DNA from: Methanobacteriota archaeon
GTDB lineage: Archaea; Thermoplasmatota; Poseidoniia; Poseidoniales; Poseidoniaceae
Assembly: GCA_002706065.1 (NCBI GenBank)
Contig: PAJM01000007.1
Location: 18,061-63,772 of the forward strand
Length of the DNA stretch: 45,712 bases
Direction of reading: 5' to 3'
Part shown: piece by piece, positions 10,660 to 38,700 of the stretch
Layout: each line of letters starts with the position of its first letter
Numbering within the stretch: position 1 is the stretch's first letter
Made by a program: the position numbers and the translations under genes
Notes under the pieces: model-generated
What the model was told of the DNA's origin: nothing
The model's input: the letters and a program-made list of their open reading frames with translations, nothing else
Databases searched by the model: none

Positions 10660-10675
10660 TTGTTAAGGAAATTTA

Positions 10676-10748
10676 CGCCGATTGTGGGGCTCGAACCCAC
10701 GACCTTGGGATTAACAGTCCCACGCTCCACCAGCTAAGCTAAATCGGC
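10676..10748 (-). tRNA. tRNA-Asn (GTT)
   Basis: On the minus strand the acceptor arms GCCGATT and AATCGGC pair fully. The anticodon loop is CTGTTAA (GTT) between GGGA and TCCC. The T arm is GTGGG-TTCGAGC-CCCAC, and the discriminator base is G (10676), as expected for asparagine. The 73-base gene has no intron and no encoded CCA. A CATAAAG element at 10770-10776, about 25 bases upstream, is its likely TATA box. Confidence 0.95.
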
Positions 10749-10769
10749 GAGTTTGTCCAGAAACCTCTC

Positions 10770-10791: not shown

Positions 10792-12063
10792 TCAAGTCGT
10801 GGGACAATCAGATATTGTCACTGTTTCCAGTATTCTTGAATTGATACCGACTTGATAATCGGAGATTGTAATGGAATTTTTTAGGCGTTGAACCAGTTGC
10901 ATGTCAATTCCAAAAGGTCCATCCAGCGTAAGAACGATATCACCATCTTGGACTTCGCTTCCAATGTGTTTGTGAATCTCAATCCCAACACCATGATCGA
11001 TGTCTTGACCTTGGACGGACCTTCCTGCACCCGCTTCACAAAGCACTTGGCCAATGGCTAGAGCGTCCAAATCAGCAATATAGCCTGACTTTTCTGCCTG
11101 CAGCGTGTATTGCTGTGGTGCTCGTTGGAGAACACTCCATGGATTTTCAACAAGTTCTTGGGCAACGATTGAATCTACCCCTTGTCGTACGAGCATCGCC
11201 TTGAACTCATTGAGGGCAGAACCATTTGAGATGACTTCTGCAATATCAAATCCTAACGCATTGGCTTGCGCATGAACCAATTCCATTGTGTCTTGTGGAC
11301 CTATGCCTTTCAGACAATCAATGGACTCAGCAATCTCATGACTGTTCCCCAACAATCTGCCGATAGGGTGATCCATTTGTGTAATTTGAGCTTTCACTTC
11401 GATTCCGAGTTCTGTCCCAACGCGAACCATGGATTGAGCAAGTTTCCGAGCTTCCTCGGAGTGTTGCATGAATGCAGCACGGCCGAACTTCACGTCAAGA
11501 ACCAGTGATTGAATGCCTTCAGCCGCTTTTTTTGATAGAATTGACGCAGTGATCAACCCAATACACGGAACAGTCGCTGTTACATCACGAATGGCGTACA
11601 AAATGGAATCGGTTGGGGCAATCTCTGCAGTTTGTCTTGAAATGAAGCACGGATTGTCGTTCATTTCTTCTATGGTTAGTCCTGTGTTAAATCCTGGAAT
11701 CGATTCAAGTTTATCGATCGTCCCTCCCGTGTGTGCTAATCCTCTGCCAGCAAGCATGGGTACTACAGCACCACAAGCACGCAAGGCAGGCGCAAGAATG
11801 AGACTCATTTTATCACCCACACCACCAGTTGAATGTTTGTCGATTGCAGTTGTTTGTTGCGGAAGGCGATCACCCTGTTCCAGCATAGCCCTGGTTAGAT
11901 CTGTTGTTTCCTTTGCATTCAATCCATTGATTTGACAAGCCATCAGAAAGGCTCCAATCTGTTCGTTTGGAATCTGGTTTAGATTTTGAATGAACCATTC
12001 GATTTCAGCTTGTTCTAGGGCATGTCCATCCCGCTTTTTAGCAAGCAGGCTTGGTATGTGCAT
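10792..12063 (-). CDS. deoA: Thymidine / pyrimidine-nucleoside phosphorylase (bacterial type)
   Basis: This 423-residue member of the thymidine phosphorylase family phosphorolyses (deoxy)thymidine to base and (deoxy)ribose-1-phosphate. Signatures: phosphate-site KHSTGGVGDK (about residues 76-85), AGRGLAHTGGTIDKLESIPG, YAIRDVTATVPCIGLITASI, LSKKAAEG and LVLDVKFGRAAFM. It lacks the roughly 80-residue N-terminal domain that marks archaeal AMP phosphorylases (about 500 residues). It therefore looks like the bacterial/eukaryal enzyme and was perhaps acquired by transfer. ATG at 12063 is preferred over the TTG at 12072; it follows the stop of the oxygenase gene by 5 bases. The tight packing suggests co-translation with that oxygenase. 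Thymidine versus uridine preference cannot be read with certainty. Confidence 0.9.
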   Translation of the reverse strand: MHIPSLLAKKRDGHALEQAEIEWFIQNLNQIPNEQIGAFLMACQINGLNAKETTDLTRAMLEQGDRLPQQTTAIDKHSTGGVGDKMSLILAPALRACGAVVPMLAGRGLAHTGGTIDKLESIPGFNTGLTIEEMNDNPCFISRQTAEIAPTDSILYAIRDVTATVPCIGLITASILSKKAAEGIQSLVLDVKFGRAAFMQHSEEARKLAQSMVRVGTELGIEVKAQITQMDHPIGRLLGNSHEIAESIDCLKGIGPQDTMELVHAQANALGFDIAEVISNGSALNEFKAMLVRQGVDSIVAQELVENPWSVLQRAPQQYTLQAEKSGYIADLDALAIGQVLCEAGAGRSVQGQDIDHGVGIEIHKHIGSEVQDGDIVLTLDGPFGIDMQLVQRLKNSITISDYQVGINSRILETVTISDCPTT

Positions 12064-12068
12064 TGCAA

Positions 12069-13031
12069 TCAACTCTCGTCAGCAGATGCCAACCCGATTT
12101 CAGCAAGACGTTGGTGAAGATATTCACCGGCTGTGATTGAGGGATAGTCCGCCGAACCCGAGGTTTGCTCAATGTATTCTGAACGAGGTGTCAAATCGAT
12201 TTCATTTCGAGGATGAACAAACATCGGCATGGAGAATCGTCGCTGGGTCGGGTCACCAGGATTCACGACTCGATGCGTAGTCGACTTGAACAAACCGTTC
12301 GTCAGGTTTTGAATCATATCCCCTGAATCGACAATAATTTGCTCGTGATTTCCTTCAACATCAATCCATGTTCCATCGTGGTCCATGACCTGCAATCCTG
12401 CGGCCGTTGCAGTCATCAACAATGTGATGAAATTGATGTCTTCATGGGCTGCGGACCGCACCGCACCTTCAGGCGTCGAGGAATCCAGTGGAGGGTAGTG
12501 TATGATACGCATGATCGTGTTTCCTTTATCAGCCATTGACGGTAGCCAGTTGGAATCCTGTTCAAGGTAAATACTGCATGCAGTGAGGAGTTGATTGGAT
12601 ATCGATTCCATCTGATTGTACAGAGAATCCACCTTTTCCTCAAATTTTGGAATGTGTTCGTTCGGCCAGATGTTCATTGGATATTTGTTGTCGGTTTCAC
12701 TGCCTTGTTGCCCGCGTCCGGTTTGCCAGAATTCCTTGAGGTCTGGAGCAGGGTTATCCTTGGCATGCTCCACTCCAAATGCGGTGTAGCCTCGTTGGTG
12801 AGAAATCTCGGGTTTTGCATAGAGTTTTTTGGTTGCTTCTTCGAGCAAAAAGAACGATTCCGCTTCCTGATAGGTCTCTTCGATAAGAGATAAGTCGATT
12901 CCGTGATTTGTCAGTGCAAAGAAGCCAATGTCTGCAAGAGAATCTCCGACGGTTTTGATGAATGCTTGAACCCGTTGTTCGTCACCTGAAATGAAATCAC
13001 TGAGGTCAGCGATTGGTAGAGGTCGTGTCAA
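12069..13031 (-). CDS. 2-oxoglutarate/Fe(II) oxygenase, isopenicillin-N-synthase-like family (possible thymine hydroxylase)
   Basis: This is a 320-residue non-haem iron oxygenase. The N-terminal DIOX_N-type part contains DSLADIGFFALTNHGI. The double-stranded beta-helix core carries HED (His196, Asp198), the distal His253 in STTHRVVNP, and Arg265/Ser267 (RFS), which should hold 2-oxoglutarate. The C-terminus (ITAGEYLHQRLAEIG) resembles thymine-7-hydroxylase-type members. No ATG occurs near the N-terminus. The start is a TTG at 13031 preceded by AGGTGA, which overlaps the Bax-inhibitor gene stop. The thymidine phosphorylase follows 5 bases after the stop. That pairing suggests a pyrimidine base or nucleoside as substrate, but this is inference; amino-acid or secondary-metabolite substrates are equally known in the family. 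Confidence 0.85.
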   Translation of the reverse strand: MTRPLPIADLSDFISGDEQRVQAFIKTVGDSLADIGFFALTNHGIDLSLIEETYQEAESFFLLEEATKKLYAKPEISHQRGYTAFGVEHAKDNPAPDLKEFWQTGRGQQGSETDNKYPMNIWPNEHIPKFEEKVDSLYNQMESISNQLLTACSIYLEQDSNWLPSMADKGNTIMRIIHYPPLDSSTPEGAVRSAAHEDINFITLLMTATAAGLQVMDHDGTWIDVEGNHEQIIVDSGDMIQNLTNGLFKSTTHRVVNPGDPTQRRFSMPMFVHPRNEIDLTPRSEYIEQTSGSADYPSITAGEYLHQRLAEIGLASADES

Positions 13032-13035
13032 TCAA

Positions 13036-13041
13036 TCACCT
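13036..13041 (-). promoter_or_regulatory. Shine-Dalgarno AGGTGA supporting a TTG start
   Basis: AGGTGA covers the last codons and stop of the Bax-inhibitor gene and ends four bases before the TTG at 13031. Because the oxygenase frame has no ATG before its conserved N-terminal region, this site decides the unusual start. Confidence 0.55.
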
Positions 13042-13776
13042 GGAATCGCGTAGTTTCGCAATCAATCGAAGCATTTCAAAGTAGAGCCAAATGACAGTTA
13101 CCATGATGCCGAAGGCTCCCCACCACTCTTGTTGTTTGGGTGCCCCCATGCGAACTCCTGCATCGATCATTCCAAAATTGGAAATCAGCATCATCGCTGC
13201 AACACATATGATGAACACACTGATTCCGATTCCAATCGGCCCAGATGAGTGAAGGAATGGGATTGTCCATGGTGTGAGGAAGACGAGTATAATGTTGATG
13301 AAGTACACGAGGAAAATCGATCCTGCCAAAGTGAATACAATTTTGTTGAAAGTCGGAGTTGGTCGAAGAATCCCCACGGAGTAAATGGTCAACATACTCA
13401 CCACAACAGCGAATGTGGCCAATCCAGCCTGTATCGCAATGCCTGGGTACATTATTTCGAACACCAGCGTCAATGGGCCGATGAACAGACCCTCGAGTGC
13501 TGCGTAAACAAGGACGAATGTCGCTGGTTCAGAGGGCCGTGAAAACCAGAGGTAGAAGCCCATACCCATTGTAGCAAACATTCCAAGCAACATCATTGGA
13601 TAAAGCAGAGCAGGCATGATGAAACCAAGCGCAACCGAGCCGACTGCACTCGTGGTTGCGACTCCAAAGACAAGTCCTGTTTTCTTCAGTGTTCCTTCGA
13701 GCGTCATTCGGTCATTGCCCTGAATTGTATTCCAAAATTTCGGCTGAAAAACAGGGTTCGATGAGTTGTATGCCAT
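13036..13776 (-). CDS. Bax inhibitor-1 / YccA family membrane protein
   Basis: The 246-residue integral membrane protein starts MAYNSSNPVFQPKFWNTI and contains MTLEGTLKKTGLVFGV before the first helix. It then has about seven hydrophobic segments, including FIMPALLYPMMLLGMFATMG, FVLVYAALEGLFIGPLTLVF and IGIGISVFIICVAAMMLISN. It ends WLYFEMLRLIAKLRDSR. This is the layout of the prokaryotic YccA/Bax inhibitor-1 group, whose better-known members are pH-sensitive calcium leak channels or protease modulators. The ATG at 13776 gives the family N-terminus; the longer frame would add residues overlapping the upstream surface protein. It lies 40 bases after that gene and 4 bases before the oxygenase. 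A specific role is not deducible. Confidence 0.85.
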   Translation of the reverse strand: MAYNSSNPVFQPKFWNTIQGNDRMTLEGTLKKTGLVFGVATTSAVGSVALGFIMPALLYPMMLLGMFATMGMGFYLWFSRPSEPATFVLVYAALEGLFIGPLTLVFEIMYPGIAIQAGLATFAVVVSMLTIYSVGILRPTPTFNKIVFTLAGSIFLVYFINIILVFLTPWTIPFLHSSGPIGIGISVFIICVAAMMLISNFGMIDAGVRMGAPKQQEWWGAFGIMVTVIWLYFEMLRLIAKLRDSR

Positions 13777-13816: not shown

Positions 13817-16800
13817 TTATCCTTGTTGAGCGACCTGTTCTTGGTAGTATTCTTCCAATTGGTCAAGGGTCCATCCAAGATCAAGATATTGTTGAACCAT
13901 GGCCTCATCCCATCCAGGGAACCGCTCAAGTTCATCAGCAAGTGCTGAGGTCGACTCTTCATTTCGACCATCCAATACCGGTTGCTCCCACTGGGCCTCA
14001 ACTCCAATCACATCGTCGATGTGTTGTTCCGTAACCCAATCCTTCGTTGCCTCCTTCTCTTTTCTCGATTGCACGATACCATAGACTGCACCAATGAGCA
14101 GGAGGAGTCCACCAAGCATCAACAAGAGCATGAAACTCTCACCAAATCCTTCTTCGGCTTCTCCACTTGCATCTCCTGCTTGCTGATTCCGTTGATCAGA
14201 CGAGCAGCCATCAACATCGGTTGGTGCACCAGATGGCGTATCTGGACACTCATCATTGGTATTCAGCACCCCGTCCTGATCATCATCAACACTTGTCTGG
14301 TTATTGTTATCATCACCAGAATCAACCGGGTCGATTCCTCCAAGATCGCAACCCAAAGCACTTGCCTCGTCAATTCCATCTCCATCAGCATCGGCCAAAT
14401 TGATTGCATCTTGAGGTGAGACATCAACAGTGGTTTGGTCGAGAGCAGTCGATTGCGCCCAGCTAACCTCAATGGCATCAAGGATGCAATCACCATCGGT
14501 ATCCGGATTGAGAGGGTTTCCTCCGAGGACGTATTCATCAAGATTGGATAATCCATCGCCATCATTGTCCATATCCGCCTCTAACGCCCCTTCGTGCATT
14601 GATACGGTACGATTCAATCCATTGTTGACTTCAAAAATATCGGGCATACCATCGTTGTCGGTATCGGTGACATTGTCAAGACGATTCCAGTCAGCATACC
14701 ATGATTCGATGAATGGTGCTGCAACTTCAGGAGATGTTACAATAAGCCCCATTTCCCGATTTCGTACCATTGCAGAATCACCCCAATTGATGCTCGAAAT
14801 GAGAACGGACTCGCCGTCAACAATGGCTCCCTTGTTGTGAAGTTTCATGACATCATCATCTTCGCTCATGATGACTGCAGATGCATCCCATCCGTTGCTG
14901 ATGTTCCAGTCGTTGTTGATGCGATCGACAACATCCTGAATGTCTTCGTCAAGGTAGGCTCCATTGATAATCAAACGAATCGAAACACCATCCGAGGCAG
15001 CCTGTTGGAGTGCAGAAATTAGCGGATTTTCACCCCATCCCCACTTCCAATCCAAGTCCAAGTATTGCAAGGAGAGTAGGATTTCTTGGTCAGCGGATTC
15101 AATCATTTCCGTTAATCCATCTACGCAATCATCAGGGCATGTGAGAAGCTGACCGCTGAATGTTCCCGTTAGTGGTTGAGCCGTGTCTTGATCAATGTCC
15201 TGTGCGTTTGGAATGACGTACGAATTTGTTGGTGGAGTCGACGATACAGGTTGCACATACATCGAGGTTTCATCAAACACCATGTTGGACCGAACATTGC
15301 TCGCAAGTTGCACACTGTCGACAAGAATGCCCCAGTCGCGATTGCCTCGATCACCATCATAGGGCAGGGATGATGGTTTCCAATTACCGGAACCAATCCA
15401 GACCGAAGCATCATCGCGTACGGCCACTTTTGAGTGGAGATAGAGGTATGGATCATCACCGGAACCTCCGAACCAGTGAACGTCAATCCCTGCTGATTTG
15501 AGTGAATATGCATAGGCTTCCTGTGCCTGTTTGTCGTTTGAATTCCACCAGTCCTCAGGCTCGTTCAGAACTACAACAACAGTCACCCCTCGATTGTGGG
15601 CGTCAATCAATGATTGGGCCAGCTCACTCGATTGAAGGATGTAGATGTGTACATAGAGTGAGGATTGAGATTCATCAACCCAGTCGAGGAGGTCCATCAA
15701 TCCGTGCTCTGGTGCGATAAGCGGTGTAATCATCGTTGCATCATCAAAGGTTGAATCCTGACAGAAATCACTTGCACCTAATCTGCCCCACCGTTGATGC
15801 CAATCAACGGACTGGTTGGTATCGGTCATTAGCCCACAGCCGTCACCGCGGTACAGGATGAGGTTGTCAATGCCGCTAACGGGCTCGGAAAGTGACACTC
15901 CGTTCCAGCCTTCGCTATCGACGGGGCCATTCTTGTAGACGATGGTGTCTGCAACAATACCGGTTGGATGGATGAGTTGCAGAGCCATTCCGCTGTCGAG
16001 CAAGTAAATAGGATTCTCCATTGCAAGTCCCATATCGAGGATATTGCCATCTTCAAACAGTTCCAACGCCGATACATCATTCGACAACTTCACCGACGAG
16101 GAGGCCTCAATCTGGAGATTGGTAATTTCAGACTGGAAAGAGGTCCCATCCGAGGCTATCCGACGAATGGACCATCCATTCAGCATAGCCGACTCGCTCC
16201 CAATGTTGGTCAGTTCGAAGAACTCCATGTCGGAGGATATTGAAGAAACACCATCCCACATGATCGAACTAAACTTGACATCATCAATCGACGCCATCAT
16301 CGCTGCATCCGGCTCAGGAGTGCCAGGTGTTGGCCAAGGGAAATCGATCCATTCGTCGTTGGTATTGTTGTAACCGTAGGTGGCACATGCAGTGCTCAGT
16401 TGGGATGCTGGTGGTGCAATGGTGAGGACAAGTTCTCCATCAGGGTTGAGGAGATTCATCGTGCTGACCTCGTCCAAACCTGCCCCAAAGATATCGTGCT
16501 CGAGTTCGACGACGACTCGGTCCATTGGTGGCAAAATCATGTCGTCGGAGTCCGATTCCCATATCACGCTTGGTGAGATAAATTGACGGCCCATGAGGGG
16601 GTTTTCTGTATAATCTGCTTCGAGAATCCAACGGCTGAGGTTGATGTCTGAGGAACCATCGTTGTACAATTCAACCCAGTCGGGTAACGGCTGGAACGCA
16701 GGGTTGTCGCACGATGTCGCAAGTTCAGTCACCAAAATACTCTCGCTGGCTACATACTCTGGCCAGACTGGATTTTCTTCACCAGGTGTTGACCAAGCAC

Positions 16801-18718
16801 TGTTCAACCAATCATCAAGACCCCACGTTGTCGAGGAGGACGGAGCGTTGGTACCTGCAGGCCCAGCGCCAGCATGCGTTTCGGTGTTGTTGATCAAGGA
16901 AACACCCTCGAGCGTGTGTGTCCATTGCGCACTGTGGACGGCAACACCATTGCCATCGTAGAGGAAAATTTGGTCAGGCGTGGTATGTTTTAGATAGAAT
17001 TGTGAAGTTCCGTTGAGGGCGACAAGAACTGTCTCGCCAGCTTCCAGAACCGTGTCGGATTTTGAAGGCATGTTGTACTGGTGAAGAATAAGCGTCCTTC
17101 CAGCAGCCGAAAATCTCCATCCAGCAACATCGACTTCTTCGGTTCCCATGTTTTGGAGTTCAACCCATTCACCGTTGGGGTAGGAAGAGGAATCGCTTCC
17201 TACTGCATCGGGAAGAACCTCAGTGATTCGCACATCACCCGTTGTTGGCGTAGGGGTTGGCTCTGGTTGACCTGGAGAAGGTGTGATGGATGGTGTCCAT
17301 GGGTCGTGGTAAGTTTGACCACGAATCAAGGAGACATTCGCTCCGTAATTTGTAGTATAATATCCCATGTCAACCACAGTTCCAGCCGAATCGCGAACCA
17401 CGATGTGATTGTGATTGTCCCAGAGTCGGGTCTCACCTGTGAATTCAACAAGTCGTCGTTCACCAGCGTTGATCATGGTACTTCCCTGGGAACTGTTCAC
17501 GACAATTGAGCCAGGGTCAAGGAACGTGACGTTCCCCATTCCATCAACAAGTGACCAACCATTGAGATCAACATCGTTGATTCCTGAGTTGTGAAATTCG
17601 ACCCACTCTCCGTCTGGGGCGGAGTTACCGTCCATTGTACTAACTGGAAGAATTTCGCTCAACGAAACATCCCCGCTCAGCACAATTTCATTTAGGCGTG
17701 GAGCGTTAGTGGCGTTCGGCGTTGGATAGGTTGAGTATTGCCACACTCCACCAGTCGCCGAGGCTTCGAGAGAGAAACCAGGCTGATTTGAATTCCATAG
17801 GATCTCATGACCGATGCTTCCGTTTGCGAGATACAGTCGTAGTGTTTCTTGTCCATTGTTCAATACGCCACTGTTTGTTGAAGCGTTAACCGATACGACT
17901 CTTGTTTGCTGAGGAAAAATCATGCGTGACGCAGCATCTGTCGATGCGCCAACGAGATGGTTCTCATCAATGAGAATCATGTTTCCGGCGAGGTCTTGCA
18001 ACCAATACCCAGTAAGATCGATGCTCGAGGTACCGTTGTTGTAGAGTTCTACCCATTCCCCTCCAGGCCACGAACTGTTGTCGTAACTTGGCCAAGGATC
18101 AGCCATGACTTCGTTGATGATGACATCACTTTGAACGTACGTCGGTCCACCTGTGCCCCCTCCGCCTGTGTTCGCAGAACCTGGCGATGGATTGGATGTA
18201 GGAATCCAGTCATTGTATGGGTCAGAGGGGTCTTCTTCAAGACTGACTCCACTGGAACTTGAATTCCACGTGGCCTCATCCACCCATCCACTTGATGAGT
18301 CGTACAAAGTCATAAAATCGTTCGAGTTTGCAACGTAAAAAGTGGTCGAAGCGTTTCGGGCAACGATCATGTAGTCGCCGGGAGCAATCGTGTAGGTCGA
18401 AGCATTGTTTGCATCGAAGCCAACGATGGAAGCTGCATTGAGTGTGAGGGTTTTTGATGCTTTATTTGAGAAATACCAGTTGCGAACATCGACGGATGAA
18501 GTACCAGAATTGTGCAGTTCCAACCATTCACCGTTTGGCCATGCAGCGTCATCGTATCCGTTTGGATTTGGCATGACTTCATTGATGCAGATTGCACCTC
18601 CACATGGCTGACTGCGTGCTGATGCTGCTTCTGCTGGTTCGACAAGAGGTGTCAGTGGAACCAAGAGCATGAGGCAGAGAAGGAAAATTGATTCAAATCG
18701 CATAAGGCATCGACGCAT
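13817..18718 (-). CDS. Giant secreted protein: six lamin-tail domains, two HKD phospholipase-D halves, calcium-binding repeats, C-terminal anchor
   Basis: This is a 1633-residue surface protein. A signal peptide (IFLLCLMLLVPLTPLVEPAEA) precedes six lamin-tail-like domains starting near residues 44, 196, 349, 496, 656 and 809. Four begin with the clear pattern INEVMP/SEILP then GEWVELHN; the fifth and sixth are more diverged. Next is a phospholipase-D-fold enzyme with two HKD motifs: LHSKVAVRDD with GSGNW (His1095, Lys1097) and LHNKGAIVDG with SSINW (His1294, Lys1296). Both halves look catalytically intact. Thrombospondin-3/EF-like repeats (DTDNDGMPD, DMDNDGDGLSN, DADGDGIDE, DDDQDGVLN; about 1349-1500), a transmembrane helix (about 1528-1548) and a tail with PGWDEAMVQQYLDLGW follow. 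PLD-fold enzymes cleave phosphodiesters of lipids or nucleic acids. Outside the cell, extracellular DNA or membrane lipid is plausible. The start at 18718 was chosen for the signal peptide. Confidence 0.85.
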   Translation of the reverse strand: MRRCLMRFESIFLLCLMLLVPLTPLVEPAEAASARSQPCGGAICINEVMPNPNGYDDAAWPNGEWLELHNSGTSSVDVRNWYFSNKASKTLTLNAASIVGFDANNASTYTIAPGDYMIVARNASTTFYVANSNDFMTLYDSSSGWVDEATWNSSSSGVSLEEDPSDPYNDWIPTSNPSPGSANTGGGGTGGPTYVQSDVIINEVMADPWPSYDNSSWPGGEWVELYNNGTSSIDLTGYWLQDLAGNMILIDENHLVGASTDAASRMIFPQQTRVVSVNASTNSGVLNNGQETLRLYLANGSIGHEILWNSNQPGFSLEASATGGVWQYSTYPTPNATNAPRLNEIVLSGDVSLSEILPVSTMDGNSAPDGEWVEFHNSGINDVDLNGWSLVDGMGNVTFLDPGSIVVNSSQGSTMINAGERRLVEFTGETRLWDNHNHIVVRDSAGTVVDMGYYTTNYGANVSLIRGQTYHDPWTPSITPSPGQPEPTPTPTTGDVRITEVLPDAVGSDSSSYPNGEWVELQNMGTEEVDVAGWRFSAAGRTLILHQYNMPSKSDTVLEAGETVLVALNGTSQFYLKHTTPDQIFLYDGNGVAVHSAQWTHTLEGVSLINNTETHAGAGPAGTNAPSSSTTWGLDDWLNSAWSTPGEENPVWPEYVASESILVTELATSCDNPAFQPLPDWVELYNDGSSDINLSRWILEADYTENPLMGRQFISPSVIWESDSDDMILPPMDRVVVELEHDIFGAGLDEVSTMNLLNPDGELVLTIAPPASQLSTACATYGYNNTNDEWIDFPWPTPGTPEPDAAMMASIDDVKFSSIMWDGVSSISSDMEFFELTNIGSESAMLNGWSIRRIASDGTSFQSEITNLQIEASSSVKLSNDVSALELFEDGNILDMGLAMENPIYLLDSGMALQLIHPTGIVADTIVYKNGPVDSEGWNGVSLSEPVSGIDNLILYRGDGCGLMTDTNQSVDWHQRWGRLGASDFCQDSTFDDATMITPLIAPEHGLMDLLDWVDESQSSLYVHIYILQSSELAQSLIDAHNRGVTVVVVLNEPEDWWNSNDKQAQEAYAYSLKSAGIDVHWFGGSGDDPYLYLHSKVAVRDDASVWIGSGNWKPSSLPYDGDRGNRDWGILVDSVQLASNVRSNMVFDETSMYVQPVSSTPPTNSYVIPNAQDIDQDTAQPLTGTFSGQLLTCPDDCVDGLTEMIESADQEILLSLQYLDLDWKWGWGENPLISALQQAASDGVSIRLIINGAYLDEDIQDVVDRINNDWNISNGWDASAVIMSEDDDVMKLHNKGAIVDGESVLISSINWGDSAMVRNREMGLIVTSPEVAAPFIESWYADWNRLDNVTDTDNDGMPDIFEVNNGLNRTVSMHEGALEADMDNDGDGLSNLDEYVLGGNPLNPDTDGDCILDAIEVSWAQSTALDQTTVDVSPQDAINLADADGDGIDEASALGCDLGGIDPVDSGDDNNNQTSVDDDQDGVLNTNDECPDTPSGAPTDVDGCSSDQRNQQAGDASGEAEEGFGESFMLLLMLGGLLLLIGAVYGIVQSRKEKEATKDWVTEQHIDDVIGVEAQWEQPVLDGRNEESTSALADELERFPGWDEAMVQQYLDLGWTLDQLEEYYQEQVAQQG

Positions 18719-18770
18719 TGAGCCAGCGCCTTCCCCCTCATATCTTTTGGTACGAAGAATCCTCTCAATT

Positions 18771-20273
18771 TCAGATGAAACCGAAGTTGTCTGCCATCTG
18801 TGCAAAGGTGTATATCATGATTGGAACGAGGATGATTCCCATTCCGTGACTTCGTCGAATACCAATGCGAGGCGGCATCAATCCGAGGATGGTGCCGACG
18901 ATTAGGACGCCAATGCCAACGAACCCAGTGGAGAGCCACACCAACGCAGTAACGAAAATGATGACTCCCATGACCATTGATTGCAATGGAATTGCAGCAT
19001 GAAGCCGTAGCATGCCTTTGCCAACGATTTTCATGATTGGCATCGCCATAATTCCGGCTGCGAGTGTGACAGCAAGCAAACGGACGAAGTCAGCTGTTGG
19101 CTGATTGGAATTCCATGTTTCGATTGGATACATCATTTTCAACGCCAGTGTCGCACCCGAACGGGACCGTCCAATGATGTAGAGGAACCCAAGAACCATG
19201 ACCGTAACAGCAGTGTTGACGGCCGATAGGATTGCAATGACTTCCAAATCCTGTTTGGTTTGCGGACCTTCGTATCCATCTTCTGCTTCTGCAACTGCGA
19301 TTTCAAGGAGCTCTTCATCGCTAAGTTCGGTCAGGCGACGAGTTTCCCAATCCATCCCGTAGCCTTCCTTTCCTTGGACTTTGGCAGCCACGTTTCGACC
19401 ACCCATGACCAGAACGGTTGCTTGCGAGGCGGTCATTCCTGGAAGCACCCCCATGCTCGCCCCAGCAACGGCCGACCAGAAACATGGTGCGATGAGTGGC
19501 TTTGCAGGAGGAAGATCCCAGTTCTCTTTTTGTGGAGGGAGGTGGCTTGTTGTAGCATATATGTCCAACAGGTTTGCAATTCCGAACAATCCCGCTAGGC
19601 TCGGAAGCAAGAGCGAAGGTGAGGGCATCCCAACCGGACTGTCAACAGGTAACTCAAAGACAGCCCAACCGTACAAACCTGCCAGTAGGAAGAACACGGT
19701 TGCAGCAACAAATCCCGCAAAACGACTGTCGTTGCCAAGTCGCTTACCCGTCAGTTTTTGTACCCATTTTGGCCAATCGAGACGGGTGGTTTCGGTTGCC
19801 AGCAAGAGCAATGAAATGACGAGCAAGATTACTGGAAGCCAGTCGCGTAAGCCATTGTACCAATCCAATTCCGGTCCAAAGGCGATTCGAGCGACCACGA
19901 TGAGTGGAAGCGACAAAAAGAGACCCAATTGCGAGCCACGTGCAGACCAGGCAACACCACGTGCAGCGTTCCCAGCGAGCAGCATACGATGCCCGGGCAG
20001 TAAGGAGAGGGCTGTATCCCCGTCGGGAGCTCCGATCAATGCTGAGGGAATGTAATTCAGGAATGTGTGGACTGTTCCTGTTGAAACGATAATCGCTGCT
20101 ACTGCAGAGAGCGGAATTCCCAATTCGAGCAAACCTGGCGAAAGTGCGAGCAGAATAAGTGCAACGTTGTTGACGTGGAAACCAGGAATCAAGCCGGTTA
20201 GTGAACCAAGCATTACTCCAAAGAACAAGGCGCCAAGGAGCCACCAAAGTTCGTGAAAGTATGCTTCAATCAT
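18771..20273 (-). CDS. TctA / DUF112 family multi-spanning permease
   Basis: This 500-residue integral membrane protein has about ten to twelve hydrophobic helices. The N-terminal GVMLGSLTGLIPGFHVNNVA and the internal ASMGVLPGMTASQATVLVMG are the two G-x-x-PG repeats typical of tripartite tricarboxylate transporter large subunits (TctA) and the related archaeal DUF112 group. TctA normally works with a small membrane subunit (TctB) and a binding protein (TctC), and neither is adjacent. An archaeal DUF112 protein with a different or stand-alone transport role is therefore more likely. The start follows the OB-fold gene by 8 bases with GGTGAG just upstream. The next gene, the lamin-tail protein, begins 52 bases after the stop. 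Confidence 0.8.
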   Translation of the reverse strand: MIEAYFHELWWLLGALFFGVMLGSLTGLIPGFHVNNVALILLALSPGLLELGIPLSAVAAIIVSTGTVHTFLNYIPSALIGAPDGDTALSLLPGHRMLLAGNAARGVAWSARGSQLGLFLSLPLIVVARIAFGPELDWYNGLRDWLPVILLVISLLLLATETTRLDWPKWVQKLTGKRLGNDSRFAGFVAATVFFLLAGLYGWAVFELPVDSPVGMPSPSLLLPSLAGLFGIANLLDIYATTSHLPPQKENWDLPPAKPLIAPCFWSAVAGASMGVLPGMTASQATVLVMGGRNVAAKVQGKEGYGMDWETRRLTELSDEELLEIAVAEAEDGYEGPQTKQDLEVIAILSAVNTAVTVMVLGFLYIIGRSRSGATLALKMMYPIETWNSNQPTADFVRLLAVTLAAGIMAMPIMKIVGKGMLRLHAAIPLQSMVMGVIIFVTALVWLSTGFVGIGVLIVGTILGLMPPRIGIRRSHGMGIILVPIMIYTFAQMADNFGFI

Positions 20274-20281
20274 GGTCTCAC

Positions 20282-22024
20282 CTACGACTGGTCGATGTAT
20301 TCTTGACGGTCGCTTATTCCATCGCCATCGCTGTCCTGACTGTTTGAACTCGTGCCGAACGACGATTCGAGTGCATCACTCAAATCATCGTTATCGTTGT
20401 CATCAACATCAGCATTGTTGAGGCTGTAGACCATGCTCACACTTTGCGCATCTTCGGTTTGGAGAAGCCGCCCTTCCCACGTCATTGCCGTTCCTAAGTG
20501 GAGCTCATCAAGACCGATGCAATTGTTGACGGCGCTCAAGAGAATCTTCTTGTCGCTTCCTGGTTCGCTCAGGTACCATGTTCCGTTTTCTTCAACAGCA
20601 AGACCATTGATTCGAACAATCTTGTTTTTGTCGTAACCCCAGTCGATAGCCCCATCGCCCCAAAGGAGATTCATTGGATTCGCTTTCTCTCCTTCCGTAA
20701 GTTCGTGGACCAATAATTCTGCTCTCATGTTTTCATCATCCCATGCAACCGTCACATTGGCGACAATTGCTTGTCCTGCTTCGAGCCATGTTGATCGTGG
20801 CCCGGGGATTGTGACTGCAATGCTTGTCCATCCCGGAGTGTAGCCAGAAGAATCGACAAGGTAAGCGGATTCATCTTCTACACTTGGTTCCAAGGCGTAT
20901 TTCATGTACGCAGAGATGATGTAGTGTTGGTTAGGAGAATCAAGAACTGCGGTTGGATTTGCATTGAGCATGAGCAACAAATCGTCGATTGAGGTGGTTG
21001 CGACCAAGGAAGGGTTGGATTCATCGCCCTTGTCAAGACACCAAGAAGAGATCGCTGTACTCCATACCAATCGACCTCGCATTTGTATGGATTTTCCGTT
21101 CAGCGAATCCACCATACTCACGTCGTCATCGCTGGGGAGAACGCACAATGGCGAGCCGGACGAGCCAGAGAGTTCCCAGGTGTCGTTCTCAACGCTCAGA
21201 ACACCTGCGACATCCACGGTTCTACCCGATGAGTACATCCAAGTTGATTGGGAAGACCAATCGAGAAGAGGCATTTCTATCGGGTGATTCCGATCGATTT
21301 TGATGTCAGGGCCTTGGACACCAAGATTCCATCGCAGCTCGCGTTGTTGATACGAAAGAACGCCTTGTACAGTAACCTTCGACCCCGCTTCAATCCATTC
21401 ACCAGTTGCGGAATGAATGGTCATTCCAATTTGGTGCTCTGAGTTTCCATAGTTGGGATGGTCGCCAAGTTTTGCATTACCAAAAGCAATATCTGGTGCG
21501 ATGGACTTGGAAAGGAATCCAGTGAGTTGAATGACTTCACCGTCATATGATTGCGGGTCTAGAGCAACGTCAGAAATTGACAACTGCGGAGCGTCAGGGA
21601 TATCGCTGGATTCCCAATTCATTGCCCCAGCCCCGAGAGCTTGTATCCACATGCGCCCTTCGTAGTTGATAACATCTCCAATGATGGTGACGTTGGTTCC
21701 GATCGGTGGTATCTCGCCGGGCCGATACCAGCGGAGTTCGACAACACCGGTTCCATCGTCGATGATTGCATCCAAGCGATCATCTCCAGAATTGTATGGG
21801 TCTTCAACCCACGAAATGAGCATCCCTTCGACCTTAACAACCTCGTTGATGTATTCGGTGAGATCATCGACATCGACCACAGAGGGTTCCCGCACCATTG
21901 CATACCAGTTGAGCGTAGCCACTAAGAACAAGGAAATCGCAAACATGACCCACAATCGTGGGCCGTTTGTTTCGGGGTCATCTGTTGATAATCGAGCAAG
22001 GAAGCCTTTCAGACCATCTGCCAT
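20282..22024 (-). CDS. Membrane-anchored OB-fold repeat protein with C-terminal EF-hand-like repeat
   Basis: These 580 residues begin with a cytoplasmic segment of about 24 residues and one membrane helix (LWVMFAISLFLVATLNWYAM), so most of the chain is probably outside. The first ectodomain is an OB-fold of the nucleic-acid-binding type: VVKVEGMLISWVED, then LDAIIDDGTGVVELRWY and VTIIGDVINYEGRMWI. Further OB-like units follow (VIQLTGFLSKSI with VTVQGVLSYQQRELRW; VDVAGVLSVENDTWEL; IQMRGRLVWST; IVRINGLAVEENGTWYL). The C-terminus has calcium-binding-type DVDDNDNDDLSDALESSF and DSDGDGISDRQEYIDQS. The ATG at 22024 is used because the longer frame has no signal and enters the divergent promoter region. 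Extracellular OB repeats could bind nucleic acid or sugar; the function is unknown. Confidence 0.75.
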   Translation of the reverse strand: MADGLKGFLARLSTDDPETNGPRLWVMFAISLFLVATLNWYAMVREPSVVDVDDLTEYINEVVKVEGMLISWVEDPYNSGDDRLDAIIDDGTGVVELRWYRPGEIPPIGTNVTIIGDVINYEGRMWIQALGAGAMNWESSDIPDAPQLSISDVALDPQSYDGEVIQLTGFLSKSIAPDIAFGNAKLGDHPNYGNSEHQIGMTIHSATGEWIEAGSKVTVQGVLSYQQRELRWNLGVQGPDIKIDRNHPIEMPLLDWSSQSTWMYSSGRTVDVAGVLSVENDTWELSGSSGSPLCVLPSDDDVSMVDSLNGKSIQMRGRLVWSTAISSWCLDKGDESNPSLVATTSIDDLLLMLNANPTAVLDSPNQHYIISAYMKYALEPSVEDESAYLVDSSGYTPGWTSIAVTIPGPRSTWLEAGQAIVANVTVAWDDENMRAELLVHELTEGEKANPMNLLWGDGAIDWGYDKNKIVRINGLAVEENGTWYLSEPGSDKKILLSAVNNCIGLDELHLGTAMTWEGRLLQTEDAQSVSMVYSLNNADVDDNDNDDLSDALESSFGTSSNSQDSDGDGISDRQEYIDQS

Positions 22025-22116
22025 GCTTCGCCCTGCTGGCTCACAATGCATATGACTTCCCATTGACCCATTTGCAAAGAGATGCTTTGAAATGGAAGGC
22101 AATAACAGGATTTACC

Positions 22117-29745: not shown

Positions 29746-32700
29746 ATGGAAAAGGTATCAAAGACCTCGCAGCGCCCTGTTTTTAGTTGGCTTATCGCCC
29801 CTTTAGCAGTGCTGATTGCAATACTAGCAAACCGCATCGATGGACTCATGTCGATCGATGTTCAACTGAACAGCGATACGATGACGCCGATCATCGCTAC
29901 TGGTGTAGCCGGACTTCTGGCTGTAACACCTCGCATTCTCCGTCAACTAGGTTCCATCCCTGAGTCGATTTCTCAAACACAAATCTCCCTCGCTATGTTT
30001 GTCCTCGCTCTGGTTGGTTCCGGAATTACCGAAACCCAGACAGACGGCTTTGTGGGGCTGACGTTCTTCATCGTCCTCTTTGGCGGTTATCTGCTCGATT
30101 CACGCGAACGTTACGAATGGATGACCATGCTCGTCTTCGCGGGTGTGGGTGTGCACTCCGCGTTTGACATCGCAACAGCAGTTGCTCTGGATGGATTTGT
30201 CGCTGGTGCAACTCCGGCGGAAGACTACTATCTCGCAGACGCATATCTCCCTGCAAGTTACGCTTTCGACGGTGGGCAAAGTTACAACGTTTCAACATTC
30301 CAAGAAACAGCACTTGGATTTGTGTTCTTTACATGGTTTACCGTGTTCCCAATTCTTGGCTTGCTGATTGGAGTCGCTGGACGCGGGGTTCTCAATCCTT
30401 CAGGCGACAAAGGATGGTTCTCGTACAACACTGTTGAGAACGGCTGGAATCGTCAAGCACTGCCACTCCAAATCGCTTTGTTCGTATGGGCTGCTGCCCA
30501 TCTTGCAACGATCTGGCATTTCGATCAAGGAGAAGTCGCAGACCGACTTCGACTCGGTGGCCTTGGTGGTATCGAAGCGAACGGATTCGTTGGCTATTAC
30601 TCCGCACTGTTGACTGGAATCGTAGCGATTATCGTGTCAGGAATGGTTGCTGAACGCTGGCTTACTCGAGCAATGACTCTAACCTCCCTTTGGGCCTTGT
30701 ACCTCGTCGGCTCATGGTACGAGGAAGGATTTTGGACCAACGAGACGTTTGCAGAATCATGGGCTCCATTGATTTGGCTTGCCATCACGTTCTTCGTTGG
30801 TGTTGCCATTTCTATTATCGGAAATCACGAGAAATACGGTGGTTGGTCAAATCGTGAAAATCACCGTCCAAGTGGCGCTCGACAATTCTGGAATGCACAC
30901 TGGGCAGGTCTCCTTACTGCAGTGGCCTTCCTCGTCGGATTGGTCATCAGAATTCAGTGGTATGCCGTTCCATCCATGCACGCCATGGGAACTGAAGGCT
31001 TCGACATGACTGGGGGTTCTGACCCTTGGTACATGAAGCGAGTTGTCGACTACATCTTGGCACAAAACGCCCACTTGATTGTTGACGCTGACCGATTTTA
31101 TCCAATTGGTGGCATCAACCCTCGACCTCCGTTGTTCTCGTGGAGCCTCGCTATCGGTGCTATGATTCTAGAACCGTTCCTCGGTGAAGACGCTGTGTGG
31201 TGGAGCATGCTCGCTCTCCCTGCTATCTACGGCGCATTGACCATCGTACCGGTAGCAGCAATCGCACGAGATCACTTCGGAAAGGCAGCCGGTGTCATCG
31301 CTGCTTGGCTGATTGCCTTCATGCCTGCACACGTCACTCACTCGACTTGGGGCCTTGCAGATCACGACTCGTTCGTGATGCTGTTTATCGTTCTCGGATT
31401 CATGTTCTATCTCCGTGCTGTAAAGTATGCGGGCTCTGAACGCTTGGTTCGAACAACGTCGATTCATCCTCTTGACATGCTACGCGCCATGGGTGCCGTT
31501 GCGCAAGAGCGCAAGTATGCAATGTCGAACGCAGTCCTTGCTGGTGTCGCCTTTGGTGCGGCAAGCCTCGGATGGAAAGGGTTCGTTGCAGGGCCAGCAA
31601 TTTTGTTCCTTGCGTACGCTGCTCAGGTTGCTCTCAACATGTTCCGACGTCGAGATTCGACCATCTTGAGCACCTTGTTCCTGACCATGTTGCTGACCAA
31701 TCTTCTCATTGCAATCCCATTCTACGCACATCCACAAATGAACCTCATGCTGGACGGAACCGGATTACAACCGTTCTTGTTCATCTTGCTGTTCACTGTC
31801 GTTATCATGTACATTACAACAGGATTCCGTGACAAGCCATGGTTGCTTGTCCTTGGAACATTGGCGGTTGGAGCAACTGCGTTCCTCGCAGCGCTCTACG
31901 TGCTGAAGGTCACGAATCTCAGCAACGCCTGGGATGTCTTGTTTACGGGTAGTGGTTACTTCACCAAGACCAAGATCTTTGGAACTGTTGCTGAAGCAAA
32001 CGCTCCTGATCGAGGATACATGTTTGCAAGCTTCGGACCAATCGTCTTTGTCTTCGCACTCGTCGTCGGTCTCACATCATTATGGAGAACATTCAGTAAG
32101 CGCAGTCAAATTTCATTGGTCTTTGCAGTCTGGATTTTTACCGCTTCGTACATGTCATGGACCGCTGCACGTTTCCTATTCAACGCAACACCTGTTGTTG
32201 CAGTGATGGGAGCAGCAGGTATTGTTGGATTCTGGAAGTGGGCCGACTGGGATGCTCTGGTTCGAAATTGGCGCCGTGCGGGTATTCGCACACCGTCAGA
32301 ACGAATCGGCGGAGCTCGACGTGCAGTATGGCGCACACCATCCTTCTCGGCCGTTGTCCTTGTTCTCATTATGCTCTCAGGACAACAACTCACATACGGA
32401 CTCGACTCTGCAATCCCAAGCAACTCTCCTGCTGAAGCAGATTTGGATGAATCGATCTACTACACCGTGCCTGACATCATGCGATGGGATGGACTCGGTG
32501 TCTCTGTACTCGATAATCGCGACTACGAAGCATTTGGTGGTCGCGCTTACATGGGTTCCTTTGGAAGTGGTTTCAACGGCCAATACTGGAACTTTGCGCA
32601 TGAGTGGTTAGCAGAACAAGACAAATATCACGAAGGTGTGACTGACAAGTCTGGTTGTGATGAAGAAAACGGTATTTGGATCAGTGACTCCGGCCTTTGT

Positions 32701-35700
32701 GAAATGAAATTTGGTGACAAACCTGCTTTCGTTTCATGGTGGGACTACGGTTTCCAAGCACTCAACACGGGCGAACACCCGTCCGTTTCCGATAACTTCC
32801 AGAGTGGTATTCCTGCTTCAGGAAACATGTTGCTTGCACGAAGTCAAACGGACTTGGTTGCAATGTTCATTCAACACCTTGCAATCGGAGATATCACCTA
32901 CAACATGGTGACCAACGACGAGAGGTCGTTCACGCCAGCGTTTGAATCTGCGCTCAAGAGTGAACTGAAGAACACTGAACAATTTGAGGAGCTTGAACTC
33001 ATCATGATTCAAGAAGGAATGGATCTTGATGATATGGCTGATGTTGTTGTTGGTCACTCATATGAGGTCTTCAAGAACAAAGGTGATGCATACATGAGCC
33101 GAGGATATCCGCTTGATTCCAACGGTATTCCGGATGAATCTCTTGGACTCCATTACCGAGTTTGGGCAGACGGTGAACTGATTCCTTGTGACAATCCAAG
33201 TGAAGAAATTTGTTCTCATGGAGACTATGTTTCTGAGCAAGCTGCAAACAGCACGTTCCGAAACAACGCTGAAGTGAGTTCAAGCGAGGTGGCTGACGTT
33301 ACGCATTACACATTCGGAGACTACTGGTACACTGCTGATTTGGTCGAGGAGTACCCGTCCGTTTCAACAAGCATCCACCGCTCCAACGCACACATTGCCC
33401 TTGTTGTCCAATTGTTGACCAACGGTTTGACCGATGATGAAATCATTGACCTGTACCACACAATCATTGAATTGGAAGACATTTACGAAGTGCAAGATTA
33501 CAACGGTGCGCCAGGTCAAACACTTGAGCGAGACCACGAAATCAGATACTTTGCAATCGACGATAAGCTGTACCCACGTGCAGGACGTTACAATTCAGAG
33601 GCTGGCTACAATGGCGGTCGACCTCTGGGTATTTTCGGTGCACCGACAATTCTGTCGGGTCAGGATTTCAACACCTTCACTAACGAAGTCTACGAAACAC
33701 AACGTGGCGATCAACCCGTCCGTGAGATGGATCGTGAGGCTGTCGATGAAGCAATGTTGAAGGACGTGCTGGACCAGCAATCAGGTGCAGAGATTGATCC
33801 GCTCACTGTACAAGACATTCGTGTCGATCATCTTCCTGAATTCTTCGATACAATGTTGGCACGTTCCTACGTTGGATACGGTGCATCAACACTCGGTGCT
33901 GATGCAGGCTCTACCAACCCACAACCACGTCAACAACTTACTGAGAATTCACGAGGAACTTCGTTCTTGCAACAAGCATATCCATTACCAGGTGCAATGA
34001 TGAATCACTTTGTCATCGCCAACTGGTACGACCCTGACACACCTGCAATCCTTGCGAATGCAAATGTTAAGATCATGAAGTACTACTCGGGCGCCGAAAT
34101 TTCGGGCACAGTCATGACTGAAGATGACGGTATGGGCTTGCCTAACGCACGAATCCTCATCGAGCGAGATGCGTTCTCGGGAGAAGATTCTGAGGACCTT
34201 GACAATGACACCTACTGGATTCCTATCGGTGTAACAGACGCAGATGAAAACGGAGATTGGAGCTTCTTGGCTCCTGCGGGTAAGATTCGTGTCTCCGCCT
34301 TCGCTGGTATTTACGATGATACGTTTGCCATTCAAGACATCCAAAGCGGAGAATTCGCGAACGGATTCGGTGACGTCTTGACGGAGAGCAACGATGACCG
34401 CCAGGTCTATGCTATTACAGCAGTACTCGGCGAAGTGGCCAATATGACTTGGCTTGGTGAAACCATGATCAACATCACGGGCGCACAGGCCGACCGTGAT
34501 GCTGATGCTCCTGCTCCTGAAGCCATGGACATCGAGGTACAGAGTACTGGTGTATCCGGTACCGTTGCGTGGTCTGGATATGGTGAGTTTGACGGTGAAC
34601 CACTGGTTGAGACCGATTTCATTCTACGAAACATATGGGCGATGACCGAAAACTACACGCTCACAACAACCAATGGATCCTTTGACACTGATGAAACCCG
34701 TGTGCTCCAAGGAACTGGTGAAGTTACGTTCTCGGATGTTGGTACCTTTACAAGCGAAGGCGTTGCTCTTGCGTACGACTTTACTGGTAACTTTACTCGA
34801 GAGATTTCGGACGCTCGCGTCTTTTCCGGTAACGGAACCTGGATAGGAAAGGGTACCATTGAAGCTACTTGGATTGAACACGACAATGCTTCACTTGATT
34901 GCGGTGAGAACTCAACCATGCCTGAGAATGCAACACTCTGTTTGATTTCAACAGGAACGGATTTCTCGACGTATCTCCTCGCTGGTGAAGCAAAAGCCAA
35001 CGGTCGCTTGACTTCGGATGGTATCAGCTCGCTGACCAAGGAACTCGATGGTGAGACCTTCGAGGGTACTGGTATCTTTGAGGGTGTAGGTACGCTCAAC
35101 GGAACAGGATTGTTCATCGGTCCTGGTACGTTCAGTGGAGACATCGTGAACCCAGGCTCGTTCTACCAAACAGGACTGGTTCCAGGTGTTTACAACATGA
35201 TTGCGGTGATGCCCAACGGTCGAGAAATACTGTTGCCTGAACCAGTTGATGTTGGAATTGAGGCAAGTTTCGATCTTTCAATGACCGTTCCTGCCTCGCT
35301 CTTTGACGACAAACTCACCACAATGTCTGGCGATGCCATACCAAATCAAGCGGTTGAACTGATTGATGTTGTTCTCGGCGAAGAGGAAATGATTGTTCTC
35401 ACGTCCGATGAGGAAGGAAACGTCACGTACGGCCCAATCACTGCAGGTGAATACCTTGTACGGGTTGATCTTGACGACGATGGGTTCTACGAACTCAACC
35501 AAACCATGCAGGTTTACGACGAGCCAATGAACTTCACCTTTGACATCGGTATTCCTGAAATGTTTGACCTGACCATTACGCTCAATGGTCCTGAAGGATT
35601 CGACGTTGCTGGACGTGAAGTTAACTTCACAGATCCTCTCGGCCTGATGCCAATCGAGGTTGTTTCAGACGAGAACGGTGTTGTCTACGTCGAACTTCCT

Positions 35701-38700
35701 GTTGGAGAATGGTCTGTCAGCGATAGCAGTGACGAAGACTACATTCTCATCGAAGAAGTCAAGGTAGAGGATTCAGACATGGCTCTGGACTTCACTTACT
35801 CAACATCGGTTTGGGTCAATGGTTCCATTCAGGCACCGAACATTGCAGGATTTGTCTATGAAGAATGGCTAGAACTGCCAGAAGAGGCGAAACTCTACGA
35901 GAATGCAAGCTCAGTACCTGTTCTTTTCCACGGCAACGGATTGGAGTTCACATCTGTCACAAACCAGTTCGGTGAATTTAGCCAACGCCTACCTGCCGGC
36001 ATGACATTCAATTTGAATGCTCAAAGTTCAGTATCGAATTTCGCAGTTGGATCCTCTGTCACCATTACAGAAGGAATGGCAGAGTTGGGTGTATTGTATC
36101 TCCAACCAACGGTTCAAGTTGAAGGATCTGTGTATCTCTTCGACAACGAAACCAATTGGAATCAAGACATTCCAAACTACGAACCTGTTGAAATCCATGC
36201 AACTGGAGATGACGGCGTTGTTTGGACCGTTTCCACAAACGAAGCGGGACTGTTCAGCATCGATCTCCTTGATGGATCGTGGTCATTCACCATCCCTGCA
36301 TCAGAGTACAATGCCAATTCGGTTACCGACTACAACGTGAGTACAGCAGACGGAATTAATCCAGAGCCTGTTAATTTAATCACAAACCCTAGCAACAGCA
36401 CAGTGACACTCAATGTGTTCACTGATCTCGGTGATGGTGTCTTTGAGAACGGTACAGCCATTCGCCCTGATATCCAACTGATTCCAGTATCTCAGGTCGG
36501 TCAACAGGTCAACATCACCTCGGATGATTACTCAGAAGATGGTGTTGTTGAGGTTGTTCTCAGTCCTGGTATCTATGCAATTTCGACCAACGATCTTCCT
36601 GCATCGGATGAAAATGCAAGCGATGCTAGTTTGGAAATTAATGGTGTTCTCGACATCATTCCTGTTGGCTTGACTGGTCCAGAAGACGCTGTCCTCGTTC
36701 CAATCGTCGATGCATGGCGAATGAACGGTTCAATCTCCTGGGCAAACGGTTCAGCCATGGTCGAGAGTTTCTTGTTGTCCACTCCTGATGGTTCGGATTA
36801 CGTCCCGATCACCGTTGACGAGAACGGATCGTTTGCAACGTATGTCCAAAGTGGAGACTACATTGTAGTCGTTCCAACGATGCTCAACGGTGATGGAATT
36901 ACGGAGTCGTTGCGGATGCCGATAACAATCGACGCAGATTCAAGTGCAAGAACGGACTTGTCCCTCTCACTGGTTGAAGCCATCGAGGTTTCGCTAACGC
37001 TCAAGGAAACTGGAACCGAATCCGATCTTGTCGGAAAGAATGTTGTTCTGGTAAGTCACGATGGATTTGGTAACATTACCATGAATCCAACTGATGCTGA
37101 CGGTAATGCGACACAATTGTTGATGCCAGGAACGTGGAGCTTGTACATGAATGAATCCGCTGCACAGCGGTATTGGACCATCGATACATCCGATTCACCG
37201 GTCGTGATGAATGTCAACACATCACTTGGTGACGTCTATGCAGACCTAGTGGTTGAAATTGGTGGAAAGGCCTATTGGGATACCGACGAGGACGACATTG
37301 CTGATGCCAACGAAGGCGTTGAAGGAGCAGACGTTACCATTCAAGGAGGAACCATTGACACAGTCATAGCCACCGATGAAAATGGTGTCTGGCGAATGTA
37401 CGTTCCAATCCTTGAGAATTACACCGTTACCATCTCGAAGGATGGTTTCGGCGTTGTCTCCTATGATGATAACAACACTGGAACTTATGTTGTTGACAAC
37501 GAACCTGTTTCACAAGACATTGAGATGTCTGCAGCAGAGGTCACCGTGACGGGTACCATCACAGACGTTCTTGACGCAACTCGCCTTGACGGTGCTTCAA
37601 TTACCCTGTACGGCACGTCTGAGAACCAGCAAGAATCGATTGATGTCGTTGGTTCACTCGCAGCAGAAACATTGTCGTTCAGCGCTGTCGTTGAACCTGG
37701 TCAATGGGTTGTTGTAGTCTACGAGGACGATGCACCGTTCAATGGTGGAGGCGTCGCTGTAGGTCTGCTTGATGCTGAAGTACAAAACGGCGGAACCATT
37801 GAACTTGTAATGAGCAAAGGCGGATGGGTCGATCTTTCGACTGAATTCACATCCTTTGGATTGCAGACATTCAATGCTGGAACGGAAGACACATCGTCTC
37901 CAGTCAGTGATGTTGTGGATGTCGAAGTTGATCTTGGCGAGGGTCTTGTTTGGGCTCTACCGCTTGAATCAGATGGAACGCTCGAAGTTCTTCTTCCTGC
38001 AGAATCAGCAACCTTCAACTCCGAATTTACGACCGTTCAGCGAGATCTTGTCATGAACTACACAGCCGGAATTTCCATCGAGAATGGCGATGAAGGACGA
38101 ACTGCAGTCATGCTCTCCTACAACAGAAAGACCAACAGCGACCTCGTGTTGTCTGTTACCAGTGTCACTGGAGCAACGGTTCTCGGTGACGAAAACCGTG
38201 ACTTGCTTGCGATTGTTGACTCCCAAGATACGGACAACTATACTTCGATTGAATTCGATGTTCTTGCACAATACCAAGGAACTGAGATTTCCGATCCGTT
38301 CGATATTACCGGAACTGTGACCGTTTCACCGGACCAAGATGAATGGAGCGTTGAATTCTACAACGGAACGGACTGGATTGATGCTTCAAGCGTCCAACTC
38401 GGAATCGGTGACGTTGCAGAGAATGCTACACTCGAAGCGACGATTCAAGCACGGATTGTTCTTCCATCTGTAGAAGCTGCGTGGTGGCTTGAGAACGGTC
38501 ATGATATCAACATTCGATTCTCCGCTGATAGCGGAGACATGAGTGAGGTCTCCATCAATGTCGTTGTTCCACAATACTATGGATTCAACACAACTGATGT
38601 CACCTCAACCGTTGGTGTTGCTCCTGGTGGTAGTACGACTGCTTCAATGACGATCAACAACAACGGAAACGGTGATGATTCCTTTACGTACGAAGTACTC

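Follow-up and report, generated by a model that had tools for sequence, protein, structure and literature searches.

The locus analysed here raises the question of what a 2-oxoglutarate/Fe(II) oxygenase does immediately before a thymidine phosphorylase gene in a marine archaeon. The analysed stretch of DNA (45,712 nucleotides; hereafter, the window) comes from Ca. Poseidoniaceae (Marine Group IIa); Marine Group II archaea are abundant in the ocean. The original prediction for these two genes was a possible thymidine/thymine salvage module that could feed uracil salvage. We found the pair within a conserved block, and this operon is a larger finding than the pair itself. We put at roughly 50% the probability that the two enzymes form the cytoplasmic end of a DNA-scavenging operon of six genes in Poseidoniales, with the oxygenase working in it. 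The following short names are used: OX, the oxygenase; TP, the phosphorylase; u606, an OB-barrel protein; LTD/PLD, a lamin-tail/phospholipase-D protein; and BaxI, a Bax-inhibitor-like protein.

The Poseidoniaceae (family f1) were represented by 171 genomes, and Thalassarchaeaceae (f2) served as the sister family. Pathway genes were sought by family searches on selected genomes, with the decarboxylase and uracil phosphoribosyltransferase sought in ten genomes that included the window's own. The latter was 83% complete, and the genomes used for absence calls were 74–96% complete; gene absence was therefore judged across the set, never by a single genome.

The OX-TP pair

Both open reading frames were confirmed on the sequence where they had been predicted. 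OX (12069..13031, minus strand) encodes 320 residues and was assigned as an IPNS-type 2-oxoglutarate/Fe(II) oxygenase of the HxDIN clade from Pfam, alignments, an AlphaFold2 model, and Foldseek. Its stop codon (12069–12071) is separated from the TP start codon ATG (12061–12063) by five bases, also as predicted. TP (10792..12063, minus strand) is followed directly by tRNA-Asn (10675..10749, minus strand; ARAGORN) at the 3′ end of the block.

The call of TP as a bacterial-type thymidine/pyrimidine-nucleoside phosphorylase was borne out. TP scored 406.8 bits against the NCBIfam thymidine phosphorylase model NF004490 (cut-off 269), matched all three domains (PF02885, PF00591, and PF07831), and kept the active-site motifs DKHSTGG, YAIRD, and SKK. 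Human and bacterial thymidine phosphorylase structures were PDB matches. The family-level assignment, by which TP would split thymidine into thymine and deoxyribose-1-phosphate, is thus well supported. Whereas the score, domains, and motifs are those of the bacterial-type enzyme, the window TP is encoded in an operon of an archaeon, together with an oxygenase, and the Poseidoniales enzymes comprise divergent types that were exchanged in situ among genera.

The pairing was conserved in relatives. OX was matched in 143 and TP in 138 of the 171 Poseidoniaceae genomes, and 133 had both. In 131 of these 133 genomes, which span ten genera, OX was the neighbour immediately before TP, with both genes on one contig and strand and mostly within 150 bases of each other; the other two carried fragments at contig ends. 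This adjacency is far above chance. In the sister family, genus g15 was the only one found with OX, which directly preceded TP in all 13 genomes (13/13). TP occurred without OX in genus g8 of f1 and genera g13 and g16 of f2, and OX occurred without TP in genome G127, with its active-site residues intact, and, likewise intact, in the class-level relative G426. The pair is tightly linked, but as TP-only and OX-only lineages exist, the partners are not obligate.

Active site and relatives of OX

OX matched DIOX_N (2.6e-25) and 2OG-FeII_Oxy (5.9e-20) and contains the HxD...H iron triad and the RxS 2-oxoglutarate motif of IPNS-type oxygenases. The predicted residues His196, Asp198, His253, and Arg265 were invariant in 20 relatives and in a set of 46 sequences that included bacteria. 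The AlphaFold2 model had a pLDDT of 90. The best PDB matches by sequence were 3oox (188 bits) and 3on7, both uncharacterised oxygenases, with thymine-7-hydroxylase (T7H) third. In Foldseek, 3oox and T7H shared first place, with anthocyanidin synthase and the ethylene-forming enzyme far behind.

Homologues with 41–55% identity were found in Bdellovibrionota, Myxococcota, Cyanobacteriota, Bacteroidota, and other bacteria, and they share the OX active-site signature (HEDIN, R265/S267/F271/H273, and K99/E100). Judged by sequence, OX is a member of an uncharacterised, mostly bacterial HxDIN clade. The same clade holds Caulobacter CC_0200 (3oox) and Shewanella SO_2589 (3on7), uncharacterised 2-oxoglutarate oxygenases that differ from OX in having Ala or Asp/His at position 79 and His at position 103, where OX has Gln79 and Gln103. 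The bacterial homologues with this signature were stand-alone and not beside TP; their neighbours were uninformative, and we discarded them as a clue to the substrate. Plasmid homologues with ~30% identity were also set aside as guides, as they belong to other subfamilies. One of them, a distant IPNS-type oxygenase on a Rhizobium plasmid (L187, 5926–6921), has an ABC transporter and a cytosine deaminase as neighbours and may be a separate pyrimidine-linked oxygenase.

Comparison with thymine-7-hydroxylase

In fungal-type thymidine salvage, TP would release thymine, OX would act as T7H to yield iso-orotate, and a decarboxylase would form uracil, which is then salvaged. Besides the conserved pair with its operon-like layout, the structure comparison speaks for this route, as T7H was the closest characterised fold (Foldseek E 8e-30; anthocyanidin synthase next, 2e-25). 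Compared with the Neurospora crassa enzyme (5c3p-5c3s; PMC4787775), OX has the same IPNS-type fold (TM about 0.84) and Fe and 2-oxoglutarate ligands, at about 28–29% identity in the structural alignment. Arg175, Phe271, and Ile199 of OX aligned with Arg190, Phe292, and Tyr217 of T7H, confirming that the first two are kept and that the second aromatic stacking residue (Tyr in T7H, for which Phe or Trp would also qualify) is replaced by Ile. The changed contacts are N87 to Q79, E122 to Q103, Y217 to I199, and N294 to H273, and OX has HEDIN in place of HTDYG. The T7H mutants showed that N87, E122, Y217, and N294 are tolerated positions for thymine (PMC4787775). As the essential T7H residues (the Fe and 2-oxoglutarate ligands, R190, and F292) are kept and the lost ones are tolerated, OX may oxidise thymine.

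Nevertheless, the sequence comparison did not single out T7H. With T7H as the query, the ethylene-forming enzyme and 3oox were as near as OX, which leaves no special sequence kinship between OX and T7H. Moreover, Arg175 and Phe271 were also kept in 28–31% identical homologues from other subfamilies; these residues are shared superfamily-wide, hence they are not diagnostic, and we rejected them as proof that OX is a T7H. No iso-orotate decarboxylase (Amidohydro_2) scored above the cut-off in the ten genomes, the window's own (83% complete) among them. The same ten genomes gave no convincing uracil phosphoribosyltransferase, with weak partial matches only; the match in the window's own genome (27.7 bits, cut-off 27) fell in a 193-residue ORF resembling a purine phosphoribosyltransferase. 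With neither gene clearly present and the kept residues not specific to one subfamily, the thymine-to-uracil pathway is not supported. We rejected the complete fungal pathway for these genomes, and the proposed route in these archaea is weak; the conserved, operon-like pair and the structural likeness of OX to T7H are what stands of the salvage module. A fungal-type role of the pair appears improbable.

The operon around OX and TP

The block reads, on one strand, u606, TctA, LTD/PLD, BaxI, OX, and TP, followed by the tRNA. The first gene, u606 (20282..22102, minus strand), encodes a membrane-anchored, putative surface DNA-binding protein. It had no Pfam match above the cut-off. Its AlphaFold2 model (pLDDT 79) consists of a membrane helix and about five tandem OB-like barrels, and the top Foldseek matches were mostly OB-fold DNA-binding proteins (HIN domains, RADX, RPA, CST, and LEF-3), with low TM-scores because the domain arrangement differs from that of the matched proteins. 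An HD gene lies divergently upstream of u606. The second gene (18771..20273, minus strand) encodes a 500-residue TctA-family transporter, a candidate importer by PF01970 (8.3e-45) and synteny.

The third gene, LTD/PLD (13817..18805, minus strand), encodes a secreted protein of 1662 residues that we assigned, from PF00932, PF13091, and PDB matches, as a putative surface nuclease/phosphodiesterase. It is composed of six lamin-tail domains and two phospholipase-D (HKD) motifs, followed by calcium-binding-type repeats. The nearest solved relatives of its PLD part are the nucleases NucT and Nuc and also cardiolipin hydrolase; both HKD motifs were present in 19 of the 20 loci examined, the window among them. 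BaxI (13036..13776, minus strand; start inferred from the ORF sequence) encodes a Bax-inhibitor-1-like membrane protein (PF12811 4.8e-61, synteny). It is present in most Poseidoniaceae and missing from the block in genera g2 and g10 and in the sister family.

The order u606-TctA-LTD/PLD-(BaxI)-OX-TP recurred in both families, with different flanks. In the OX-less genera g13 and g16, LTD/PLD directly preceded TP and, in the g13 genome, was itself preceded by u606 and TctA; in g8, TP lay beside BaxI. As LTD/PLD or BaxI abuts TP in these loci, TP is a member of the block and OX an inserted one. A scan for promoters and terminators at the locus, made with bacterial models on an archaeal host, gave nothing above chance. 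Elsewhere in the window (29746–39345), an ORF of 3199 residues combines an STT3-like oligosaccharyltransferase part with a carboxypeptidase-regulatory domain.

Origin of OX and replacement of TP

The Poseidoniales OX sequences formed a single clade nested among the bacterial ones (100/99.6), consistent with one acquisition from bacteria. The g15 OX nested within the Poseidoniaceae OX tree (AU p 0.036), whereas the g15 LTD/PLD and TP grouped with their own (sister) family, indicating that OX entered the block at the same slot. TP, in contrast, was replaced in place. In genomes G143 and G145, TP grouped with genus g1 (100/99) amid g9-like flanking genes (contigs L073 for G143, L018 and L050 for G145), which points to local recombination at the locus. 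We do not claim that OX and TP were transferred together in these two genomes; the TP donor was clearly g1-like, but the placement of OX was weak (81/95).

Proposed DNA scavenging and alternative roles of OX

At the domain and fold level, a single operon holds a secreted nuclease-type protein, a nucleic-acid-binding part, a transporter, and a nucleoside-cleaving enzyme, and DNA scavenging is the best reading of the block. The surface OB-fold protein u606 would bind DNA, the secreted LTD/PLD protein would cut it, and the TctA-type carrier would import the products, of which thymidine would be split by TP into thymine and deoxyribose-1-phosphate. OX, a probable bacterial acquisition slotted immediately before TP, would most likely oxidise a DNA-derived pyrimidine (thymine or thymidine). 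On the other hand, PLD domains can act on lipids as well, carboxylates are the known cargo of TctA carriers, and lamin-tail repeats do not prove DNA binding. The conserved block may also be mere synteny, as homologous recombination through the flanks could bring OX to that slot with no selection involved.

Comparable systems have been described in bacteria. In the DNA-degradation loci of Ca. Izemoplasmatales, transporters accompany a lamin-tail/nuclease protein (PMC8289736); the extracellular nuclease ExeM has lamin-tail and OB-fold parts (PMC6085458). Common to these and the Poseidoniales block are a lamin-tail protein that carries nuclease or OB-fold parts, transporters, and nucleoside breakdown. 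In contrast, the Poseidoniales block is archaeal, its nuclease candidate is of the PLD type and not one of the nucleases described there, and the operon includes a TctA carrier, TP, and a 2-oxoglutarate oxygenase. Our literature search returned no paper that ties these archaea to thymidine phosphorylase, and nothing specific on the use of extracellular DNA or of nucleosides by Marine Group II. If the reading is right, an operon that serves to capture, cut, and take up DNA and to break down thymidine would name a food source that can be tested gene by gene. For the OX clade, which is widespread in bacteria and has two solved structures, the operon limits the choice of candidate substrates to pyrimidines and sugars that come from DNA.

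The main competing explanation is that OX serves general metabolism, independently of TP, and stays in the block through inherited gene order alone. The stand-alone homologues in bacteria that share its active-site signature and the intact OX without TP in G127 and G426 favour it and were counted against the DNA-scavenging operon; TP kept without OX in g8, g13, and g16 also favours it. However, the tight OX-TP layout survived the in situ replacement of TP by a distant type, and the sister family acquired OX into the same slot before TP. We consider inherited order alone a serious but not the favoured explanation. As a rough split for the substrate itself, something unrelated to TP comes slightly short of even odds, thymine is a tentative candidate, and thymidine or another deoxyribose-bearing compound is a little less likely than thymine.

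A further explanation concerns the sugar. OX could handle the deoxyribose part, so that deoxyribose-phosphate aldolase (DERA) is not needed, either as a deoxyribonucleoside 2′-hydroxylase, after which TP would yield ribose-1-phosphate, or by oxidising deoxyribose-1-phosphate. Deoxyribonucleoside 2′-hydroxylation is known chemistry, although no sequence match for it was made and the family assignment makes TP an enzyme of deoxynucleosides. Within Poseidoniaceae, OX and deoC were mutually exclusive. Only two of the 171 genomes, G132 and G167, carried deoC, in both cases a canonical DERA with an aldehyde dehydrogenase beside it; G132 belongs to g8, which has TP beside BaxI and no OX, and the OX of G167 is an in-frame stub without about residues 66–275, its catalytic core lost. 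The naive hypergeometric p among genomes with the slot visible, which ignores relatedness, was 3.4e-4. Sampled OX-less sister-family genomes also carried deoC. Against this, there are two independent cases only, G131 (80% complete) lacked both OX and deoC, and deoC co-occurred with OX in g15, where it is divergent, and in 34 of 37 bacterial OX genomes. With so few cases and this co-occurrence, we keep the bypass as a minority hypothesis; it is unlikely, although somewhat less so than the fungal-type route, and a general replacement of DERA by OX is contradicted in bacteria. The narrower proposal that OX replaces DERA in Marine Group IIa by oxidising the deoxyribose of DNA-derived nucleosides, e.g. 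by 2′-hydroxylation of thymidine, is slightly less probable than the bypass at large. If true, it would be a new oxygen-dependent route for extracellular DNA consumption in the surface ocean.

Among minor observations, the G167 stub (L247:2648-3022) occupies precisely the slot that precedes TP. The two DeoC-family matches scanned in Poseidoniaceae were rejected as DERA; that in the window's own genome is an FBA-like aldolase, and that in G035 reads as a 2-amino-3,7-dideoxyheptulosonate synthase-like protein. Many sister-family genomes encode short, divergent DeoC-like proteins that keep the Schiff-base lysine motif (L234, L238, L240, and L244), beside a SerC-like aminotransferase (L234 and L244) or another aminotransferase-like ORF (L238 and L240).
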